Shown here: one piece after another, positions 5,174-53,843 of the stretch
How the letters are laid out: each line of letters opens with the position of its first letter
Numbering within the stretch: the stretch's first letter is position 1
Assembly: GCA_032433765.1 (NCBI GenBank)
Contig: JAVIAB010000092.1
Coordinates: forward strand, 60,717,126-60,781,125
Direction of reading: 5' to 3'
Length of the DNA stretch: 64,000 nucleotides
DNA from: Megaustenia siamemsis
Taxonomy: Eukaryota; Mollusca; Gastropoda; Stylommatophora; Ariophantidae
Translations under genes and position numbers: made by a program
Notes under the pieces: generated by a model
Database searches by the model: none
What the model was told of the DNA's origin: nothing
Seen by the model: the letters and a program-made list of their open reading frames with translations, nothing else

Positions 5174-5311
5174 TCAGATTCCCGTTGATCCTGGCGATGA
5201 TGCTGTCACATCAGGAGGTGTGTACTTTGCTGGCAGTGAAGTGATTTCTTGAAACAGCTCCTCTAGATTTGCTGATTCTATGTATGAGATCGGTGTCAAG
5301 TCAATCTGAGC
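5174..5311 (-). CDS. DEG/ENaC channel terminal exon (cytoplasmic C-terminus, stop TGA)
   Basis: The acceptor CTCTTTTCTTCAG opens a phase-0 frame of 45 codons ending in TGA (5174-5176). The residues are acidic and Ser/Thr/Pro-rich (ESANLEELFQEI, KYTPPDVTASSPG), plausible for a cytoplasmic tail, and the exon fits the phase of the TM2 exon. It contains SLPAKY and TPPDV; a PY-type (PPxY) ubiquitin-ligase motif like that of vertebrate ENaC is not present. Confidence 0.8.
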   Translation of the reverse strand, partial: AQIDLTPISYIESANLEELFQEITSLPAKYTPPDVTASSPGSTGI

Positions 5312-7615: not shown

Positions 7616-7759
7616 AGGGTTGGTTTTTTTGCATGAACGTTTGTGCCACAATGATCTTCCAATACCAAACAGGAAGCTGCAGATTTCTCCAAGTGTAATA
7701 GCTGATAGGCCTAGCCATAATCCTAACTGGCCACCAAAATCACTGATCAGGTTCATGCT
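7616..7759 (-). CDS. DEG/ENaC channel exon (TM2 and selectivity filter)
   Basis: It reads LISDFGGQLGLWLGLSAITL followed by GEICSFLFGIG and a basic cytoplasmic start (WHKRSCKK). GGQLGLWLG followed by G-L-S is the TM2 and G-x-S selectivity-filter block of Na+-selective DEG/ENaC channels. The acceptor is AATTTCAG and the donor CCT|GTAAGT. It is 48 codons in phase 0 at both ends. Confidence 0.95.
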
Positions 7760-9305: not shown

Positions 9306-9384
9306 CTCATACGCTTTCTGTTGCTCCACTTGTTCATAAATAAGATCTTGAAAATAGATTTGTAATTTGGTGAACTCCATGTTA
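9306..9384 (-). CDS. DEG/ENaC channel exon (pre-TM2 palm strand IYFQDLIYE)
   Basis: It encodes NMEFTKLQIYFQDLIYEQV and then EQQKAYE, matching the family strand (hydrophobic-x-IYF-x-x-L-x-YE...Q...AYE) that leads into TM2. The acceptor is CACATTGCAG and the donor GAG|GTAATT. One base in, phase 0 out. The hAT-derived element at 9626 begins about 240 bases upstream, inside the preceding intron. Confidence 0.92.
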
Positions 9385-17331: not shown

Positions 17332-17389
17332 TTTGTAATTCTCTGATGGCCATATAGCTGTGGAGATGGAAAATTCGTACTTGGTTTCC
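17332..17389 (-). CDS. DEG/ENaC channel exon (KYEFSISTAIWPS)
   Basis: A 58-base exon encoding ETKYEFSISTAIWPSENYK. The Tyr, S-x-S and WPS pattern is the family signature between the cysteine-rich thumb and the wrist. The acceptor CCCTCTATTCACAG has a good pyrimidine tract, and the donor AAA|GTAAGT matches consensus. One base in, phase 0 out. Confidence 0.92.
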
Positions 17390-21573: not shown

Positions 21574-21652
21574 GTGCAAGGTGCAGGACACAGTTTGTCA
21601 CAAACCTCGTAGTCTCTAGAATAATTTTGGGGCAGGTAGGCTACGCATTCGT
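21574..21652 (-). CDS. DEG/ENaC channel exon (CDKLCPAPC)
   Basis: A 79-base exon. Incoming G plus AC gives Asp, followed by ECVAYLPQ and CDKLCPAPC. The acceptor is GACATTTTCAG and the donor CAC|GTAAGT. The closing C-x(2-3)-C-P-x-P-C block is conserved before the Y...S-x-S...WPS segment, and the outgoing AC plus G makes Thr. A relic RNase H-type LINE fragment on the opposite strand ends only about 20-30 bases away. Confidence 0.9.
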
Positions 21653-25752: not shown

Positions 25753-25969
25753 CAGTTGTTGTGTCTGTCATGTTACAAACTGTGACGTTGTCTAGAACGT
25801 AGTAGAAGGGGACAGCACACTCGCAGTATTTGATAGCCATGTCCTGGTAGCAGGACTTGAGACAGGCCAGCTTGCTGTAATCTGTACCCAGAAATGTTCT
25901 GTAGTAATCTGTGGTCTCGCCGGTGTCACCACACGATCCGTGAGGAGGGGGCAGTCTGGAGAAGGAGAT
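25753..25969 (-). CDS. DEG/ENaC channel exon (cysteine-rich thumb domain)
   Basis: It reads from a RLPPPHGSCGD segment through ACLKSCYQDMAIKYCEC to VTVCNMTDTT. The C-x(3)-C...C-x-C spacing and the LPxPxGxC start are typical of the disulfide-rich thumb of DEG/ENaC channels. The acceptor is CTGTTTTTCAG and the donor ACTG|GTAATC. Phase 0 in, one base out. NVT and NMT are glycosylation sequons. Confidence 0.95.
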
Positions 25970-28935: not shown

Positions 28936-29099
28936 CTGTCTGATTCCAACAGAAGTAGACCGACCAGGCATGACCGAGATGCCCTCATCTTCAGGAAACG
29001 GCATCGAACCTTTCTTGTGGACCAGAACTCTCACGCCGGCGTCTGGGGCCAAAGTTTTCATGTAATTTTTCTGATCCAGGAACAGTTCTAGCCTCAGTC
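28936..29099 (-). CDS. DEG/ENaC channel exon (GLRLELFLD ... GVRVLVH ... PG)
   Basis: It reads GLRLELFLDQKNY, then GVRVLVHKKG and a PGRSTSVGI segment, the beta-ball and palm block conserved through the DEG/ENaC family. The acceptor is TTCTTTTTCACGAG and the donor CAG|GTTGAG. It starts with two bases of a split codon and ends in phase 0, 54 full codons. No stop or missing conserved residue is seen. Confidence 0.93.
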
Positions 29100-31803: not shown

Positions 31804-31910
31804 CATTTTCAGGACCAGGAAACCTTGAGGTAAGGGTTGGGCTGTTATCAAATTTCGAGTTGAAGGTGTAACAGTTACCGTACTTGTGGTTATGGAAGTA
31901 AGTGAAGTTC
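31804..31910 (-). CDS. DEG/ENaC channel exon (NFTYFHNHKYGNCYTFN)
   Basis: It encodes NFTYFHNHKYGNCYTFN, one of the most diagnostic blocks of the family, then runs to GPEN. The acceptor is TTTATTGCAG and the donor AATG|GTCAGT. The single outgoing G joins GA of the next exon to give the Gly of the conserved GP-x-NGL motif, an internal check on both splice sites. NFT is a glycosylation sequon. A (TA)n run and an RTE relic lie directly downstream in the intron. Confidence 0.92.
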
Positions 31911-35287: not shown

Positions 35288-35443
35288 ATCGGCGAGCACT
35301 GATACCCTCCAAATTTGCAGGCAGCTATCATGTCCATCTTTTTATGTCCCGACTCCTCCACGAAACTGGAGTTTAGTTTGGCCGTGATGTAGGCGTACGT
35401 CATAGCGTCCAAGTATTCAACGTCTCTTCTGACAAAGAAGTCA
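35288..35443 (-). CDS. DEG/ENaC channel exon (DFF motif to CKFGGYQC)
   Basis: It begins NDFF across the splice and ends with MIAACKFGGYQCSP, which matches the family pattern in which a cysteine-containing FGG-x-x-C block precedes the YGNCYTFN motif. The acceptor is ACTTTCAG and the donor GAT|GTAAGA. One base in and two bases out fit both neighbours; the outgoing AT joins G to make Met. The exon carries an NSS sequon. In known structures this region forms part of the finger and knuckle. Confidence 0.9.
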
Positions 35444-38458: not shown

Positions 38459-38642
38459 TTGAACGTGGAACTATTTGCTAACACACTCCATATGTTAAAT
38501 GAGGCGTTTTGAATTATCTGGTCCGATTTGGTGTTGTTTGGTGACTTTGTTTCTGTTTTATCAGCTCTTTTCACTCTGCGAAGTGCTGAAGGAATAACAC
38601 TTTCAAGTATTACCATGTTACTAAGCACTATAGATGATGCTA
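38459..38642 (-). CDS. DEG/ENaC channel exon (finger-domain insert, part 2, furin-like site)
   Basis: The acceptor is GCTTGGTATTACAG and the donor AA|GTATGT. Two bases complete the previous codon and two remain for the next exon, where AA plus T gives Asn just before DFF. The exon contains RRVKR (RVKR at 38566-38577), a furin consensus, followed by a Lys/Asn/Thr-rich linker and two N-glycosylation sequons (NAS and NSS). A (TA)n microsatellite begins about 30 bases past the donor. The phase match on both sides strongly supports it as part of the gene, although the residues themselves are not family-typical. Confidence 0.72.
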
Positions 38643-39082
38643 CTGTAATACCAAGCAAATTTACTTGTTATTTTTATTTATTAACTTTAATCGCAAACTG
38701 CAAAATCGTGGATGCATGTTTTCTTTCATTTCTCAAAGCATGGGAACTTTTAACAAATTAAGCAGGTGATTGAAAAGTTTTCTTTCAAGATTGATTCTAC
38801 TTAGCCGATTTTTGTAATTGTTACGAAATGTTCTGGAGTAAGATAATAAGATGACTACTTTTTCTTCAATCATTTTTTCTTTTGTCTCCACACCACCTTT
38901 ATTTTCATATATTATTATCCTCAGCTTTAGTATTTGCCTCAACTTCTGATGTATGTATGTTTCTTTGTAAAATCATAATTTTGTACTTAGTATAATTATT
39001 CATATATATTATTTATACTACAATAAATAATATTGTATTTTCTACAATATTAAACATTAATATTGTAGAAAACTGAAGCTAC

Positions 39083-39287
39083 CTTCTTTATTGTCTCTGT
39101 TTATTTGGTAGCTAGACTTTGTGTTCTGATAATCTTTAGAGATCCACATCTTCTCAAAAGGCAGACTGTAGTCAATGAATGTTTCTTGACTAACGGAAGT
39201 AGCTCCAGGAAGTCTTTTGTCGACAACAAGAATTGTATCTTTTTCTAAACGATTAGTAACTTCAGAGCTTCTTTTCTCTTGATTTCC
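39083..39287 (-). CDS. DEG/ENaC channel exon (finger-domain insert, part 1)
   Basis: The acceptor is strong (TTCCTCTTACAG) and the donor is AAG|GTAGCT. The exon starts in phase 0 and ends with one base, which the next exon completes to a valine codon. It reads 68 residues of charged, polar sequence without cysteines. The segment has no obvious counterpart in standard family members and would sit between the post-TM1 strand and the DFF motif, within or next to the finger domain. It makes up most of the tract between the two furin-like sites. Coding status is inferred from phase and splice sites rather than conserved motifs. Confidence 0.68.
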
Positions 39288-40016
39288 CTGTAAGAGGAAA
39301 ACCAATAGATTGTGTGTCGGTCTTTAGTCTCCTTATCGCATAATAAATTCAAGTACATATAGTATATTTTATATAATAAATAGAGAGAGATTTTTTATTA
39401 AGATAGAAAGTACAACAAAACACTTAACACAACACAGAAAGTGGCTGATCCGATACTAATTTGATTTGCCATGAATTACTTCAAGGCTTTCACTTTCCAA
39501 TGTCCCCGGTCCCATTCAACACGTTCCTTGTTGCAATTGCAACTCAAAAATTGGAAGGAACTGGAGGAGCACTATCTTTTGCTGATGATGTTTTATTGTA
39601 TCGGCAGGGCTAGGCAGAAATGAGATCAGCAACTCATGAAAAGCAAATTTGATAGCACTGCGTCCTGTAACAGTTCACAATTTCAAGTCAATTCAAGACA
39701 AACAGCAGAGACATGGTCCTGTTCCAATAATTGTAATTTTAGTACAGAACTGGCAGTTGTGAACACGTAATGAGGTGTGATTTAGACCTACGTGAGCTTT
39801 AAAGGACATGTGTAATAGTATAGTACAAGGATAAAGGAGAAAGAAGAATACACAATTCAACTGATGAACGAAACTTCTAAAAGGTCAATGACCTCACCGA
39901 CTAATAACTTTTGCTTCGAAGTCGAATTGTTTTTTTTTTTTTTTTTTTTTTAGAGATTTTTTAAAGGGTCCGAACATTTAAAAGTCACACGGTGGCAGAT
40001 CAGAAGTATAGGCTGG

Positions 40017-40333
40017 TAACAAAGTAAAAAGTAAAGTACCCCCGTCACGCCAAGTGGCGTATAGGGAATATTGTGTTTTTTTAAGTAAGTACCCCCGTCA
40101 CGCCAAGTGGCGTATAGGGAAATATGGTGTTAGTGACCCTATATTTTACAGACCTTCAGCACATGATTTTTGGGGTAATGTGGTCAGTATTACGCCCGTG
40201 CTGCTTTACTTTCCCAGACAAAAATCCTGTACCCATTTAAGACTGGGTGAACCCGGAAGCCGTCGGTTGGGATCGAACCCTACCCCTTGTCCTTTGTAGT
40301 CCAGTTCACTAACCACTGAGCTATCGCGGCTCC
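40017..40333 (-). mobile_element. tRNA-derived SINE, family 1, copy 2, with 13-bp TSD
   Basis: AAGTATAGGCTGG flanks it at 40004-40016 and 40334-40346. Its 3' end (GTACCCCCGTCACGCCAAGTGGCG) is present twice in tandem, about 57 bases apart. The head is intact (A box, B box). Confidence 0.92.
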
Positions 40334-41235
40334 AAGTATAGGCTGGGTGTTGCAGAAATTTCAACCGTTACCTTGCTAACGCTTCCTGCACAATCACACA
40401 AAAGCATGCCGGTTCTTATATTCTTGATGGCTGTGTGCAGGTTGTCTAGTGTGTCTTTGTAGCGGATAGGACTGGTGTTCACACCAGGCTCTCTAAAGTC
40501 TGCCAAAGAAGCCATTCAAGGTAAAATAAAATCATCATCATCGAGTGCCGTCTCCGCAACGAAGGTTGGCTACCATGGAGCGCCATTCTACTCTGTCTCT
40601 TGCTTTGATGGTGCAGGTTGTCATAGGCTGATTTGTCCATCTTTTGATGTTACTCGTCCATGTTAGTCTGCCTCTGCCTCTTTTACCTTGTATTTTCCCC
40701 TCCAGGATTACTTTTAGTAGGCTGTTGTGTCTTTTAACATGGCCCAACAAACGCATTTGTCTTGTTTGAATTGTGCTTAGTAGTTTTCTTTTCATTTTTA
40801 GTTGTTTTAAGATTTCATCGTTTGTTTTCTTTTCCTTCCATCTAATTCTGCCTATTCTTCTATATATACACATTTCAAAGACTTCAATTCTCTGTTCTAT
40901 TTTCTTGTCTAATGTTCATGTTTCTGCGCCATATATGAATATTGAGAAGATGTAACTTTTGCTATTCTTAGTTTTAGCCCTGGTGTTATTTGTTTTGATG
41001 TTAGTATGTTCTTCATGACATTAAAATTACTTTTTGCCATTCCTATTCTTTTGTTTATTTCAATTGTACATTTTCCATCACTGGTTATAGTATGCCCAAG
41101 GTAGTTGTAGTTCTGAACTATCTCCAGGTCTATTCCTTCAATTCTGATACCCATTTGTGGGTTTTGGTTATTTTCTTTGTTTATGATCACAGTTTTAGTA
41201 TTTTTGATATTCATATCTAGTCCATATTTTTTACT

Positions 41236-44200
41236 CATCATCATCATTGAGTGCCGTCTCCGCAACGAAGGTTGGCTACCATGGAGCGCCATTTTGCTCT
41301 ATCTCTTGCTTTGATGGTGCAGGCTGTCATCGGTTGACTTGTCCATCTTTTGATGTTACTCGTCCATGTTAATCTTGGTCTGCCTCTGCCTCTTTTGCCT
41401 TGTATTTTCCCCTCCAGGATCACTTTCAGTAGGCTGTTGTGTCTTTTAACATGGCCTAAGAATCGCATTTGTCTTGTTCTAATTGTGTTCAGAAGTTCTC
41501 TTTTCATTTTTAGTTGTTTTAAGACTTCGTCGTTTGTTTTCTTTTCCTTCCATCCAATTCTACATATTCTTCTATATATCCACATTTCAAAGGCTTCAAT
41601 TCTCTGTTCTGTTTTCTTGTCTAATGTCCATGTTTCAGCACCATATGGGAATATTGAGAAGATGTAACATTTTGCTATTCTTAGTTTTAGCTCTGGTGTT
41701 ATTTGTTTTGATGTTAGTATGTCCATCATGACATTAAAATTACTTTTTGCCATTCCTATTCTTTTGTTTATTTCAGTTGTACATTTTCCATCACTGGTTA
41801 TAGTATGTACAAGGTAGTTATAGTTCTGAACTGTCTCAAGGTCTATTCCTTCAATTTTGATATCCACTTGTGGGTTTTGAGTATTTTCTTTGTTTATGAT
41901 CATAGTTTTAGTCTTTTTTATATTCATATCTAGTCCATATTTTTTGCTTGTCGTGTTTATTTCATTAAGTAATTGTTGTAGGTCTTTAGGATTTTCTGCT
42001 AGTAGTACAGTATCGTCAGCATATCTTAGGTTATTGATTATCTTTCCATTAATTTGTAGGCCTGGCATCTCTATGATGTTTTTAAAGATTTGCTCAGTGT
42101 ATAGATTGAACAAGCTTGGTGATAGGATGCATCCTTGTCTTACTCCTCTTTTTATATCAATGGGTGTAGAGAACTCTTTGTTATATTTTATTATTGCTGT
42201 TTGCTCCCAGTATAGATTGCATATTAGTCGTATATCCATGTCATCTAGATGTATCTCTTTTAGGCATTCTCTAAGTTGTTTGTGGTGTACTCTATCAAAA
42301 GCTTTGGTGTAGTCTATGAAGCAGGCATATATTGGTTTGTTTACTTCTGTGTATTTTTCGATTAATGTTCTCATGCAGAATATGGCTTCTTTTGTCCCGC
42401 TATTTTTCCTAAATCCAAATTGCTGCTCATCTAATTCAGTATTGATTTTATTCTGAATCCTTCCTTGTATAACTTTTAGCAAGATTTTTGTAACATGGCT
42501 CATTAGGCTTATTGTTCTAAAGTCACTGCATTCAACTGCACCATTCTTTTTAGGCAATGCAATGAAAGTTGATGTTTTTAGTTCATTTGGTATGTATCCT
42601 GTGTGGTATATGTCGTTGCATATGTCTGTAATCACTTCAATGCCAAAATCTTCAAGTGCCTGTATCATCTCTATCTGTATGCTTTCAGGTCCTGCTGCTT
42701 TTCCCCTTTTCATTGTTTTTATAGCTTTTTCCACCTCAGATTTTAAGATTTTATAGCCTGACGTACATTTTATAACTGGTTTCTTGTCCCTTTGATCATG
42801 AAATAGTTCTGTTATATATTCCTGCCATCTATCTATGATATCCTTATTGTCTGTTAGCATTTTTCCTTTTTTGTCTACAATGCATCCACCTTCTGTGGCT
42901 TTTTTATTTTTATTAGTCATTCTCTTTATTTCTGTGTGCATTCCTCTTAGGTCTTGTTTGCTTTCCATAGTTTCTTTTTCTATACATTTTTGGCTGAGCC
43001 AGTCTTCTTTTGCCTTTTTGCACATTTTGCGTATCTCATTATCTATTTTATTGTATTGGGCAGTGTTCTTCGCTTGTCTCCTTTCTTCCATTTTTTCTAA
43101 GATGGTGTTAGTTATCCATTTTTGTTTTTTGTTCTTTTCTCTTTTGGGTAAGGTGTCGCAGGCTTTTTGTATGCTTTTCTTTATGCATTGCCATTTGGTT
43201 GTTACTTTTTCATCAGGATTTTCTCTTCTGTATTGTTCAATTCCTTCCTCTAGCAGCTTCTGGTATGTGTTCTTTACTTGTATTGTATAGGTATCTTTAA
43301 TATCTTTTTGATTTAAAGCTGTTATGTCGAGTGGGTTTGTTGATGAATTAGATTTTTGCTTGTTTCTCTTTAGTTTGATTTTCATTTTAATCATTACAGG
43401 ATTGTGATCAGAATTAATATCTGCTCCTGGGTAGGTTTTGGCTTTCTTTACGCTGTTACGGAACCTTTCTTTTATCATTATGTAATCTATTTGATTCCTC
43501 TTCCTATCTCCAGGGCTTTTCCATGTGTATAGTTTCTTTTTCTCTTGCTCAAAGTAGGTGTTACATATTATCAGCCTGTTTTCTTCACAGAATTGTATTA
43601 ATCTTTCTCCTCTGTCATTTCTTTTTCCTAAACCATGATTTCCTATAATTGTCTTGTATCTACCTTTTCCTACTTTAGCGTTCATGTCACCCATTACAAT
43701 CAAGATGTCTGAAGATTTCACTTGCTTCATAACTTTATTTAGGTCTTCATAGTATGCCTCTATTTGTTCATCTGTGTAGTCTTGTGTAGGTGCATATGTC
43801 TGTATTATTGCTATGTCGAATGGTTTTGCTTTCAACTTGAGTAGTATAATCCTATCACTGTATGTCCAGTGGGTACTTATATATTTTTGTAGCTCTCTTT
43901 TTATCAGTATTCCTACCCCCCTTTGATGTTCTGTTGTGTTTCCTGAGTATATAAATGTATATTTTTCGTCTTCAATGTACCCACATTCTTTCCATCTAGT
44001 CTCTGATATGCCTAAAATATCTATATTTATTCGTTCTGCTTCTTGAATTAGATTTTCCAATTTCCCTTGTTGATATAGAGTCCTAACATTCCAAGTACTT
44101 ATTTTAAGATCTTTCCTCCGACATAAGTTCGAATTTCTCCGACTCTCCATGGCTTCCTCTGGACTGGTACGTGATGAGGCTCCAATCTCTTTCACGGTGG

Positions 44201-44238
44201 TCAGCCATGTTCGTCTTTCGTGTTCTGAACATGCCTCT
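41236..44238 (-). mobile_element. Full-length RTE LINE, family A, with 11-bp TSD
   Basis: A perfect TSD (TATTTTTTACT on the plus strand) lies at 41225-41235 and 44239-44249. The element is about 3.0 kb, normal for RTE, starts AAGAGGCATGTTCAGAACACG and ends in (ATG)n directly after the stop codon. It carries one uninterrupted frame (next entry) and lies inside an older copy of the same family. Confidence 0.95.
41244..44150 (-). CDS. RTE endonuclease-reverse transcriptase, intact
   Basis: 968 codons from the first ATG (the frame is open a further 15 codons upstream). The protein would nick target DNA and reverse-transcribe its own RNA there. N-terminal apurinic-type endonuclease: ISTWNVRTL (about 20-28), ISETRW, GDMNAKVG, NQIDYI and SDHNPV, carrying the expected catalytic Asn, Glu, Asp and His. 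RT domain: LPKKNG, FGFRKNSGTKEAI, CFIDYTKAFD, GVRQGCILSPSLF and YADD with both catalytic aspartates. The C-terminal region has GWKEKKTNDEVLKQL, FLGHVKRHNSLLKV and GRGRPRLTW, as in BovB/RTE elements. Single-frame organisation and about 3 kb length suit RTE. No missing motif was seen, so it may be competent, although expression is unknown. Proteins of this kind are often labelled craniofacial development protein 2-like by homology. Confidence 0.95.
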   Translation of the reverse strand: MESRRNSNLCRRKDLKISTWNVRTLYQQGKLENLIQEAERINIDILGISETRWKECGYIEDEKYTFIYSGNTTEHQRGVGILIKRELQKYISTHWTYSDRIILLKLKAKPFDIAIIQTYAPTQDYTDEQIEAYYEDLNKVMKQVKSSDILIVMGDMNAKVGKGRYKTIIGNHGLGKRNDRGERLIQFCEENRLIICNTYFEQEKKKLYTWKSPGDRKRNQIDYIMIKERFRNSVKKAKTYPGADINSDHNPVMIKMKIKLKRNKQKSNSSTNPLDITALNQKDIKDTYTIQVKNTYQKLLEEGIEQYRRENPDEKVTTKWQCIKKSIQKACDTLPKREKNKKQKWITNTILEKMEERRQAKNTAQYNKIDNEIRKMCKKAKEDWLSQKCIEKETMESKQDLRGMHTEIKRMTNKNKKATEGGCIVDKKGKMLTDNKDIIDRWQEYITELFHDQRDKKPVIKCTSGYKILKSEVEKAIKTMKRGKAAGPESIQIEMIQALEDFGIEVITDICNDIYHTGYIPNELKTSTFIALPKKNGAVECSDFRTISLMSHVTKILLKVIQGRIQNKINTELDEQQFGFRKNSGTKEAIFCMRTLIEKYTEVNKPIYACFIDYTKAFDRVHHKQLRECLKEIHLDDMDIRLICNLYWEQTAIIKYNKEFSTPIDIKRGVRQGCILSPSLFNLYTEQIFKNIIEMPGLQINGKIINNLRYADDTVLLAENPKDLQQLLNEINTTSKKYGLDMNIKKTKTMIINKENTQNPQVDIKIEGIDLETVQNYNYLVHTITSDGKCTTEINKRIGMAKSNFNVMMDILTSKQITPELKLRIAKCYIFSIFPYGAETWTLDKKTEQRIEAFEMWIYRRICRIGWKEKKTNDEVLKQLKMKRELLNTIRTRQMRFLGHVKRHNSLLKVILEGKIQGKRGRGRPRLTWTSNIKRWTSQPMTACTIKARDRAKWRSMVANLRCGDGTQ

Positions 44239-44735
44239 TATTTTTTACTAGTCATGTTTATTTCATTAAGTAATTGTTGTAGATCTTTAAGTTTTTCTGC
44301 TAGTAGTACAGTATCGTCAGCATATCTTTGGTTATTGATTATCTTCCATTAATTTGTAGGCCTGTCATCTCTATGATGTTTTTAAAGATTTGCTCAGTGT
44401 ATAGATTGAACAAGCTTGGTGATAGGATGCATTTCTGTCTTACTCCTCTTTTTATATCAATAGGTGTAGAGTTCTCTTTGTTATATTTTATTATTACTGT
44501 TTGCTCCCTATATAGATTACATATTAGTCGTATGTCCATGTCATTTAGATGTATCTCTTTTAGGCATTCTATAATTTGTTTGTGGTGTATTCTAAAAAGC
44601 TTTGGTGTAGTCTATGAAGCAGGCATATATTGGTTTGTTTACTTCTGTGTATTTTTTCGATTAATGTTCTAATGCAGAATACGGCTTCTTTTGTATCGCA
44701 ATCAAAAATAAAATACAGTCAGCATAACCTTACCA

Positions 44736-44994
44736 AGGGAGCCGCGATAACTCAATGGTTAGTGAACTGGACTACAAAGGACAAGGGGTAGGGTTCGATC
44801 CCAACCGACGGCTTCCGGGTTCGCCCAGCCTTTAATGGGTACCGGATTTTTTTCAGGGAAAGTGAAGCGGCACGGGCGTAATCCCGACCACATTACCCCA
44901 AAAATCATGTGCCGAAGGTGTGTAAAATTTATGGTCACTTACACCATATTCCCTATACGCCACTTGGCGTGACGGGGTACTTAACTTTTTTTTT
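44736..44994 (+). mobile_element. tRNA-derived SINE, family 1, copy 3, with 12-bp TSD
   Basis: ATAACCTTACCA flanks it at 44724-44735 and 44995-45006. The A box is TAACTCAATGGTTAG, B box GGTTCGATCCC, and it has the 3' hairpin and T-run. It sits in the mariner relic. Confidence 0.93.
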
Positions 44995-45443
44995 ATAACC
45001 TTACCAGTTGTGACTTGTATTTGGTTGGGTCATGGTGATCCGGGATGTTTCCATTGCATGCTTCCTTGTTTTGCTGCAAGTCTCGAGGTGATGGCACCAC
45101 GACTCATCGTCAGCAGGAAAGAAATGCATCACCTTTATCTTTGTAAAGCAGCAGGTTGTTCAAGCTCTACCCCATGCGTTCTTATTTATGGTAGTTGGTC
45201 AGCATCCTTAGGATCCACTGTGAACACACCCTCCGATAATTCAGTTTACTGCTAATCATTATTTCAACTGTCCCAAGCTACACAGCGAATTACTCAGCTA
45301 GAAAACACAAGCTCGTACGACGGTTCATCCATATTGCTGCATAAATCTCGGCTATGGCTTCTTCTGTCACAACAATATGAACCTGACCTGACCGCGGATG
45401 ATTTTTCGTTAACTCACGTCCTACTAGAATCATTCGAGCTCAC

Positions 45444-46550
45444 TCCTTCATGGTAATCTTAGATACACTGTTGTCATCATACACAGCTAGCACAACCATG
45501 TCCTTCACTGTGGTCTTAGATACACTGTTGTCAACATACACAGCTAGCACAGCCATGTCCTTCACTGTAGTCTTAGATACACTGTTGTCATCATACACAG
45601 CTAGCACAACCATGTCCTTCACTGTGGTCTTAGATACACTGTTGTCAACATACACAGCTAGCACAGCCATGTCCTTCACTGTAGTCTTAGATACATTGTT
45701 GTCTTCATACACAGCTAGCACAGCCATGTCCTTCACTGTAGTCTTAGATACACTGTTGTCATCATACACAGCTAGCACAGCCATGTCCTTCACTGTAGTC
45801 TTAGATACACTGTTGTCATCATACACAGCTAGCACAGCCATGTCCTTCACTGTAATCTAGATACACTGTTGTCATCATACACAGCTAGCACAGCCATGTC
45901 CTTCACTGTGGACTTAGATACACTGTTGTCATCAAACACAGCTAGCACAGCCATGTCCTTCACTGTAGTCTTAGATACACTGTTGTCAACATACACAGCT
46001 AGCACAGCCATGTCCTTCAATGTAATATTAGATACACTGTTGTCATCATACACAGCTAGCACAGCCATGTCCTTCACTGTAGTCTTAGATACATTGTTGT
46101 CTTCATACACAGCTAGCACAGCCATGTCCTTCACTGTAGTCTTAGATACACTGTTGTCATCATACACAGCTAGCACAGCCATGTCCTTCACTGTAGTCTT
46201 AGATACATTGTTGTCTTCATACACAGCTAACACAGCCATGTCCTTCACTGTAGTCTTAGATACACTGTTGTCATCATACACAGCTAGCACAGCCATGTCC
46301 TTCACTGTAGTCTTAGATACATTGTTGTCTTCATACACAGCTAGCACAGCCATGTCCTTCACTGTAGTCTTAGATACACTGTTGTCAACATACACAGCTA
46401 GCACAGCCATGTCCTTCACTGTAATCTTAGATACACTGTTGTCATCATACACAGCTAGCACAGCCATGTCCTTCACTGTAATCTTAGATACACTGTTGTC
46501 ATCATATACAGCTAGCACAGCAATGTCCTTCACTGTAATCTTAGAAACAC
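45444..46550. repeat. 57-bp minisatellite
   Basis: About 19 units of TAGATACACTGTTGTCATCA plus TACACAGCTAGCACAGCCAT plus GTCCTTCACTGTAGTCT. Variants ATCAT, TTCAT, AACAT in the centre and TAGTC, TGGTC, TAATC at the border are arranged in repeating patterns. A 2-base loss near 45857 shifts the phase. It opens frames on both strands (57 is divisible by three). Confidence 0.97.
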
Positions 46551-46559
46551 TGTTTTCTA

Positions 46560-47910
46560 CACAATAAATAGCTGGTAAAGAACGTTCTATTAACTGTATG
46601 CTTTTGATACCCTGTTGCAAAGATCAGATCTAGAGTGGAGAAAGTATGCCACCTTCTGGAATAGAAACTCTTTTTGTCATCTCACCTGTTAATCAAGTGG
46701 AGATTTGTATCAATCTCATAGTTTTCTGCTTTTTCTCACCTGCTGTATGCATCTTGGATTTTCTCAATCTTTGAGACCGGCTGTTCAAATCGCCAGTGAC
46801 TAAAGAGTTGAGGTTTGTTGTTGCTATACTTGACAGAGACAGGTCCTTGTTTCGTGGACCATAACAGATGAAAATATGGATATTGGTTTTCTTTATTAAT
46901 GTGACAAATCCTATGATTTCTGAATTACTTGTTTGTATTTATTGATTCTTCATTACTTGGTATATTGTTGCGTGTTGGTAGTAGTACCCCTCGGAATGTC
47001 TGATGTCCTCTGATTGTGAATCTATGCTTGTTATTGAGGTGATTTTTTCATTTACATGCAACAGCGATTTGTTCTTGTACAAATGATGCTTTTGGGGGAC
47101 TTCGTCTTTTATCACTCTTTCTACATTTCACTGTTGTATGTTGGGTGTTAGTGTTTGGTCAATAACTTTTGCCATTTCTCTCTGTGTCTTGACTCCACAA
47201 GTATACGCTTTGTTATAAATAACTTCCAATTTGCGTTTCCGTAAAGGATGTCCAGTAGCGTCCAATTAAGTGTTGCTTTCATTATGGAGCCTGAAGTGTA
47301 GATTAGTTGAACAGATAATATGAATATCGATTATGCACTTACGATGCCACAGTCTTATACTACAAGACGGCTATCACAACTTATTTCTGTGTGTTGAGAG
47401 GTTTTAAGATGTGGCAAAGAAAACAGGCCGACAATTTTAATTCTGCTCGTGTAACTGGAGATCTAAACAATACACGTTTTAATTTGTCTTTAATTTTTCT
47501 CCCGTTGTGGACTTTTAAATGTCATAGTTTAGCTCTGATTGATGATTCTATGTTGAGATAATCGACATCTGCTTTTTTTTTTTTTTTTGGCACGCATTTA
47601 GCAGAACGCAACAGAGGATATGAAAACGAACGAAATTTCATACATACTGATACATATTGATTGATTTAACGGTTGTCGGAGAAAAACCAAAGAAGACGAA
47701 CTTTTAATACTACGAGTTTCACATAATATATGGCGGGAATCAAGATACTCAATTTAATGAGATAGACAAAGCGTTTTATCGACAATTCTGGAAGACAATC
47801 TTTCAACATGTGCTGTTAGTACGGAGTATATGAAATGCAGCATCAATCAGAATCGTGTTTTAAGTTGCTTTATAGTTGTAATTTATTAATTCAAAAAAAA
47901 GAATCGAACA
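46560..47910. other. Intronic, no gene recognised
   Basis: The minus strand of about 46640-47200 has some coding-like pieces with stops, perhaps an old LINE, but no motif could be assigned. A T-run lies at 47573-47588. Confidence 0.3.
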
Positions 47911-47919
47911 CTGACAAAC

Positions 47920-48076
47920 CTTCGAGCGAAAAACTGTACCCGTGGTGAATCTACTATCCTGGGCTTCTCGTTTACGTCTAGCAATTTCAGTAGTGGGCTC
48001 TTGCGACGTGGTTAGTGACTCTGTTAATGCGTCAATACATGTTACATTCATAGACTCAGATGTCGATATAATGATG
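47920..48076 (-). CDS. DEG/ENaC channel, tentative upstream exon (post-TM1 region, furin-like site)
   Basis: The minus-strand segment has an acceptor after TTAG and a donor AAG|GTTTGT. It begins with one base completing a split codon and ends in phase 0, which fits the next exon at 39287. It reads about 52 residues, including an NVTC that may correspond to the conserved VTIC found just after TM1 in this family, an N-glycosylation sequon (NVT), a Ser/Thr-rich stretch, and RRKR at codons 33-36 (47968-47979), a furin consensus. Similarity to family members is weak here, so assignment rests on splice phase, open frame and position. The upstream partner exon, which should end with two bases of a codon, was not identified. 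Confidence 0.55.
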
Positions 48077-53709: not shown

Positions 53710-53843
53710 CTGTGCAGTTCTGCTCATCCTCACCGCCAGCACAATCTGCAACATTTTTATACAGAGGACGGATAAATACAATTGCCTTTTTGCACTGGGA
53801 GTTGTATTCAGGACACGTGAATAGTATATTATTCACATATGTC
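53710..53843 (-). CDS. Exon encoding an LDL-receptor class A module
   Basis: The minus-strand segment has acceptor CGGTTTCAG and donor ACAG|GTAAGA. It reads FTCPEYNSQCKK and then NVADCAGGEDEQNC. The F-x-C...C...DC-x-G-x-DE-x-x-C arrangement is the LDLa consensus, including the acidic calcium-binding D...DE. The first cysteine would be on an upstream exon, and the position of the fourth cysteine (C-D-G-V-A-D-C) holds Tyr (YKNVADC), so one disulfide is probably lost or rearranged. It lies 5.6 kb upstream of the tentative channel exon on the same strand, but the phases (one base out here, two needed there) need at least one exon between them. It may belong to another receptor gene. Confidence 0.72.

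Follow-up and report, generated by a model that had tools for sequence, protein, structure and literature searches.

In the vertebrate epithelial sodium channel (ENaC), double cleavage in the finger region frees inhibitory tracts and turns the channel on, and the accessible part of the work describing this links the paired sites and the activation by double cleavage to coevolution with terrestrial life (PMC8791634). That part of the text gives no match for "invertebrate" or "mollus", and furin is unmentioned in the accessible parts of PMC10148893 and PMC9822975. A search of open PMC text by titles and the beginnings of abstracts, with subscription papers and preprint servers outside its range, found no paper on furin-type tracts in DEG/ENaC proteins of molluscs or other invertebrates. 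Here we analysed a gene on the minus strand of a 64,000-nucleotide stretch of contig C91 (60717126-60781125) in the 2.59 Gb genome of the land snail Megaustenia siamemsis; this whole stretch is called the window, and coordinates are positions in it. Judged by its sequence, the gene encodes a gastropod DEG/ENaC sodium-channel subunit from a heterobranch family bearing LDLa repeats, and two furin-like sites flank a long tract in its finger linker.

The proximal site, RRKR|EAQ, was found in exon A at 47968..47979 and the distal site, RVKR|ADK, in exon C at 38566..38577, both on the minus strand and, as a previous sequence-only reading had stated, in one phase-consistent chain of open exons. When exons A, B, C, D, and E were joined, the frame read ...TTEIARRKREAQDS...SALRRVKRADK.... 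Both convertase-type basic motifs sit after palm strand 1 and before the finger helices, in the interval of the chain that holds the vertebrate ENaC sites. The distal site stands 22 residues ahead of the F of FNIW; this is the value used, while the offsets of 144 and 34 obtained for the window in the tree analysis run to a later FNDF match. Strictly between the two motifs there are 106 residues (the separation of 110 first reported holds if RVKR itself is counted), with 16 residues coming from exon A, 68 from exon B, and 22 from exon C. The tract therefore spans three exons, instead of having two of its own as had been supposed, and it is indeed longer than its counterparts in the vertebrate matches (about 20 residues for the majority of alpha subunits, 35-40 for gamma). 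Exon A (47920..48076, minus strand) enters in phase 2 and leaves in phase 0, and it contains a variable linker rich in S and T, the proximal site, and the beginning of the tract. The "NVTC block" formerly taken as a landmark belongs to this linker; it is no conserved channel motif and is missing from the equivalent exon of the neighbouring gene. Exon B (39083..39287, minus strand, 205 nt) is all tract, and exon C (38459..38642, minus strand, 184 nt) carries the end of the tract, the distal site, and the finger segment NASFNIW. The DFF motif, the other landmark, does start exon D, though relatives mostly read FYxxRDxEx there.

The sites were compared in 13 heterobranch sequences, the window included and the fragments P0012 and P0020, without linker, left out; RX[KR]R was considered a strict site. 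Most of these matches carry both LDLa and ASC domains, and a further search yielded no additional heterobranch sequence. In the tree the window protein was placed in the heterobranch LDLa+ASC clade (100/100), grouped (100/94) with Bradybaena and Candidula, which are land snails, and this position, together with LDLa repeats between the first transmembrane segment (TM1) and the finger, identifies the family. The tree contained no vertebrate ENaC, and the best database matches of the window protein were molluscan. The orthologues mostly keep both sites, as the sequence-only reading had demanded. A strict proximal site was present in 10/13 sequences, the exceptions being P0008 (KQKR), P0006 (distal site alone), and P0001 (short model). 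The strict distal site was present in 11/13, always 22-27 residues ahead of the F of a conserved FxxW, and was replaced by weaker motifs in P0007 (RKIR) and P0008 (RKVR). For each of these 11 sequences, a motif fell within that six-residue range in 0.2-1.8% of the shuffles. Bradybaena P0122, Elysia P0003 and P0004, Plakobranchus P0002 and P0009, and Biomphalaria P0007 share with the window gene the tree family, the layout and, in most of them, the paired sites; the window gene differs from them in its diverged tract and in the degeneracy of its last LDLa-like exon. Because marine sea slugs carry both sites, a general link to terrestrial life does not fit.

Outside the heterobranchs, the relatives among chitons, vetigastropods, and caenogastropods carry one distal site in most cases: single distal-type sites were found in Haliotis (3/3), Nucella, Babylonia, Gigantopelta P0016 and the chiton Liolophura (P0156), located as in the window gene shortly before an FNKW-like finger segment; these proteins, unlike the window gene, have neither a proximal site in this slot nor LDLa repeats. 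Gigantopelta P0015, unlike P0016, has no distal-type site, and Batillaria P0060 carries two sites and is without LDLa. In the chiton protein, a linker rich in S, T, and P ends in RRRR right before an NSSYNQW segment. Up to the GNCY anchor, a motif was present in 8/9 gastropods that are neither heterobranchs nor limpets, in 0/3 limpets, and in 1/16 bivalves. The absence from the limpets and from nearly all bivalves makes it likely, as far as sequences can tell, that the paired sites of molluscs arose separately from those of vertebrates. The simplest history would start from an ancient distal site, which bivalves and limpets have lost or lack, and would add the proximal site in heterobranchs; several other histories are possible, since the tree requires at least 4 label changes for site content.

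The window gene belongs to a tandem cluster with at least nine members, since nine copies of its exon G, the window's own included, lie on C91 at 60.61-61.37 Mb. In the upstream neighbour, par3, the phases of exons A' (RRKR|E), B', and C' (RMKR|Q) equal those of exons A, B, and C; 88 residues separate its two sites, and the alignment of its tract with that of the window scored 76, the best of 2000 shuffles reaching 56. Exon A' of par3 appears to leave by a GC donor (AAG|GCAAGT). A further paralogue match to exon B was obtained in L035 (2735-2842, E 5e-7). Eight cluster genes yielded an exon C, in seven of them with an RXKR distal site, and the proximal site was seen in four of the six genes whose upstream stretch was covered, namely, the window gene, par3, L034+L037 (RQKR), and L036+L038 (RRKR), the splice sites of the proximal exons of the last two not being modelled. 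No proximal exon was seen in the short upstream stretch examined for L033 and L035. The cluster paralogues thus differ in site content. The neighbouring channel gene par2 (L021-L032, C91:60597126-60717125) shows a run of eight consecutive LDLa exon matches after TM1 and before the finger, and one of the eight is without a cysteine. A second cluster, of more distant DEG/ENaC genes, was observed at G000:C137, 92.3-95.3 Mb, and accounts for 30 of the genome's 62 ASC matches.

Taking into account the position of the sites and their recurrence, we propose, with confidence that is about even, that the tract is an independently evolved counterpart of the GRIP domains, cut by a convertase and removed to relieve inhibition. 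Two proprotein-convertase cuts at the finger-linker sites would excise the 106-residue tract and, by analogy with vertebrate alpha and gamma ENaC, its release would relieve inhibition of the channel; a physiological trigger, if there is any, may govern the cutting. The likeness to the vertebrate alpha and gamma GRIP domains lies in the fold family, in the two basic motifs of the linker that joins palm strand 1 to the finger helices, and in the presence of pairs in some subunits only. Apart from tract length, the molluscan side differs in its preceding LDLa repeats, in the predicted two-helix tracts of the orthologues, in its probable separate origin, and in having marine members. In the MAFFT alignment of the slot there was no clear similarity of the tract to the vertebrate inhibitory tract, no test having been aimed at tract homology.

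Models of two orthologues, with the window protein not among them, suggest that the tracts form a helix-loop-helix between disordered sites; this was read from the secondary structure strings and not from coordinates. In the AlphaFold2 model of P0122 from Bradybaena (mean predicted local distance difference test, pLDDT, 75.6), the proximal RRRR 354-357 lies in disorder (pLDDT about 33), followed by helices 398-412 and 418-446, with blocks 401-440 at 85-92. RQKR 440-443 closes the helix, while the distal RMKR 462-465 falls in a stretch of low confidence (pLDDT about 46). The model of P0005 (mean 76.2) has helices 342-354 and 361-388 (68-89), and its sites have values of about 33-35 and 58. The best solved-structure matches of P0122 were human ENaC chains. 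A profile of the orthologue tracts, built with near relatives left out and compared with 300 shuffles, recognised 7/9 of these tracts above all shuffles; the P0008 tract was above 297/300 and that of P0121 was unrecognised (110/300 shuffles as good).

Several results weigh against the proposal. The profile did not recognise the tract of the window (66/300 shuffles as good) or that of par3 (221/300), and the pairwise similarity between the window tract and those of the orthologues was mostly no better than that of shuffles. Because both tests fail, a family-wide inhibitory core is not shown for the window gene; considering that the profile recognises 7/9 tracts and not those of the window and par3, the core is conserved, at the level of sequence, in part of the family and the window's cluster has diverged. 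The match of QETFIDY in the window to Q[DE]SFxNY was not borne out statistically. The tract evolves fast, with differences between the window and par3 spread almost evenly over the codon positions in exons A-C (0.44, 0.37, and 0.55), the values for the core being 0.08, 0.13, and 0.25, and purifying selection on it could not be shown, the ratio of nonsynonymous to synonymous changes (dN/dS) of 0.28 being unreliable because dS is too large. The distal motif is missing from exon C of the neighbour par1, and neither par1 nor par2 yielded a proximal exon. Cleavage and inhibition are themselves predictions, drawn from motifs and from the vertebrate analogy.

This rapid divergence of the tract would also agree with cutting that does something other than relieve inhibition: the N-terminal half with its LDLa repeats, a ligand-binding module, may be matured or loosened by it, or the released tract may act as a peptide. 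LDLa repeats and the proximal site co-occur in the heterobranch sequences, and the LDLa array is highly variable, as the eight exon matches of par2 indicate. The sites, however, do not require LDLa, since Batillaria has two and Haliotis one, both without these repeats, and a core is common to 7/9 orthologue tracts, of which a plain spacer would have no need. We consider this explanation rather unlikely.

The slot itself was also evaluated, by counting RX[KR]R motifs against 400 shuffles in sets of related and hence non-independent sequences. The 13 heterobranchs have 24 motifs in the slot against 1.4 expected (shuffle maximum 5), 9 other gastropods have 10 against 0.7, the 18 limpets and bivalves have 1 against 0.4, and 15 vertebrate ENaC matches have 17 against 1.2. 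Among 67 other DEG/ENaC sequences (27 of 94 were dropped for want of anchors, and P0127, a VPS10 protein, was excluded) there were 37 motifs against 3.4 expected, with at least one in 29/67 and two or more in 8/67. From the palm to the second transmembrane segment (TM2), taken as control, there were 0 motifs against 0.3 expected in heterobranchs and 3 against 2.7 in other DEG/ENaC. A depletion of this control region in heterobranchs was considered and discarded, the zero being no evidence where 0.3 are expected. The excess is therefore confined to the slot, yet many lineages are enriched, and since it extends to the other DEG/ENaC, the sequences indicate that the slot gains furin motifs repeatedly across the family. 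The eight proteins with two or more are P0149 (UNC-105 of C. elegans), P0150, P0089 (a Lottia paralogue), P0126, P0147, P0073, P0105, and P0110; they resemble the window gene in having the motifs in the same slot and differ in belonging to other subfamilies, with spacing and linker that are not comparable. The suggestion that the tract is analogous to the vertebrate one and independently expanded accordingly stands at the level of sequence, through the position of the sites, their recurrence in orthologues and paralogues, and their scarcity in limpets and bivalves, and it is weakened by the wide recurrence of motifs in this slot.

That recurrence suits a loosely selected polybasic linker, a disordered slot in which the molluscan pair would be cut incidentally or not at all, or would serve trafficking or charge. 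The variation of site content among the paralogues goes in the same direction, and there is a precedent in human delta ENaC, according to the accessible part of PMC8791634. A linker of this kind would not be expected to keep the distal site within the same narrow range in 11/13 heterobranchs, and the excess over shuffles is large, even if the related sequences are non-independent. We regard this explanation as unlikely.

It is very improbable that exons B and C represent open frames within an intron which real transcripts skip or replace, although the exon chain was read from genomic sequence and the A-B intron includes a long reverse-transcriptase reading frame. Given the 205 nt of exon B and the 184 nt of exon C, the loss of one of them, or of the two together, shifts the frame, so only the full chain A-B-C-D keeps it; moreover, par3 shares the module and its phases, its tract similarity was reached by 0/2000 shuffles, and predicted orthologue proteins contain both sites and the tract. 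Chance occurrence of the two motifs is hardly credible given their conservation in orthologues and paralogues: RX[KR]R is short, with 44 matches listed over all window open frames of at least 20 residues in the six frames, but when the 155-residue linker of the window gene was shuffled 5000 times, two or more appeared in only 0.6% of cases.

The rest of the gene follows on the minus strand. Exon D (35288..35443) encodes a finger segment (DFFVRRDVEYLDAMTYAYITAKLN...GHKKMDMIAACKFGGYQCSP), and it is followed by exon E (31804..31910, NFTYFHNHKYGNCYTFNS...), exon F (28936..29099, GLRLELFLDQ...VLVHKKGSMPFPEDEGI), exon G (25753..25969, RLPPPHGSCGD...CLKSCYQDMAIKYC), exon H (21574..21652, DECVAYLPQ...CDKLCPAPCT), and exon I (17332..17389, ETKYEFSISTAIWPSENYK). 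Exon J (9306..9374, FTKLQIYFQDLIYEQVEQQKAYE) was located by pattern, fits phase 0, and has a strong match in the neighbour. Exon K (7616..7759) carries TM2 and the selectivity-filter region (SMNLISDFGGQLGLWLGLS...), and the likely last exon (5174..5311, AQIDLTPISYIESANLEELFQEITSLPAKYTPP...stop), with boundaries set by eye, has a matching C-terminal exon in the neighbours. Exons A to I and K have AG/GT splice borders and agreeing phases. The Pfam ASC match (E 1.5e-67) covers residues 157-494 of the 513-residue model and reaches the end of the profile; with TM1, the strand after it, and the trimeric channel fold of the ectodomain, it defines the protein as DEG/ENaC.

Upstream of exon A, a probable exon at 53710..53843 (CPEYNSQCKK...ADCAGGEDEQNC), also drawn by eye on the minus strand, is LDLa-like and degenerate, and Pfam gave no family for it. 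Since its exit phase is 1 and the entry phase of exon A is 2, one or more further exons should lie between them; a second LDLa exon sought by pattern between 53.7 and 48.1 kb was not found. The gene's N-terminal half is located upstream of the window on the same strand, in positions extended beyond it: two LDLa-like exons, 72708-72577 and 68032-67913, with tblastn E values as low as 6e-5 and 9e-4, the FPSVTICNLNP exon with the FPSVTxCNxNP strand that follows TM1 at about 95080-94900, and the TM1 exon at 98085-97891, assigned to the gene by order and strand (E down to 6e-25 for TM1 and the strand after it). The open frame within the A-B intron has 997 codons (41244-44237, minus strand), with endonuclease and reverse transcriptase domains, and is LINE-like. 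A tandem 58-base repeat was observed at 61.96-62.34 kb, with frames reading LCVWTVCVVM/ENMSRDCVCGLYVWSW.

In a wider sense, furin-excised tracts relevant to gating may have arisen in invertebrate DEG/ENaC independently of vertebrates, with a distal site in molluscs as far as the chitons, and afterwards the heterobranch proximal site and LDLa ligand-binding repeats, leading to a protease-armed family with a two-helix tract that expanded in tandem in this land snail. We hold this history tentatively, with somewhat less than even confidence. If it is true, the design would have no need of terrestrial life, given that marine sea slugs possess the pair, and a second separate lineage with paired sites, aquatic members included, would make it possible to test independently for what reason such tracts evolve and whether any removable insert in the slot is able to keep the channel closed. 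That the excess of motifs in the slot is broad suggests in addition that proteolytic control may be commoner in DEG/ENaC than has been assumed.

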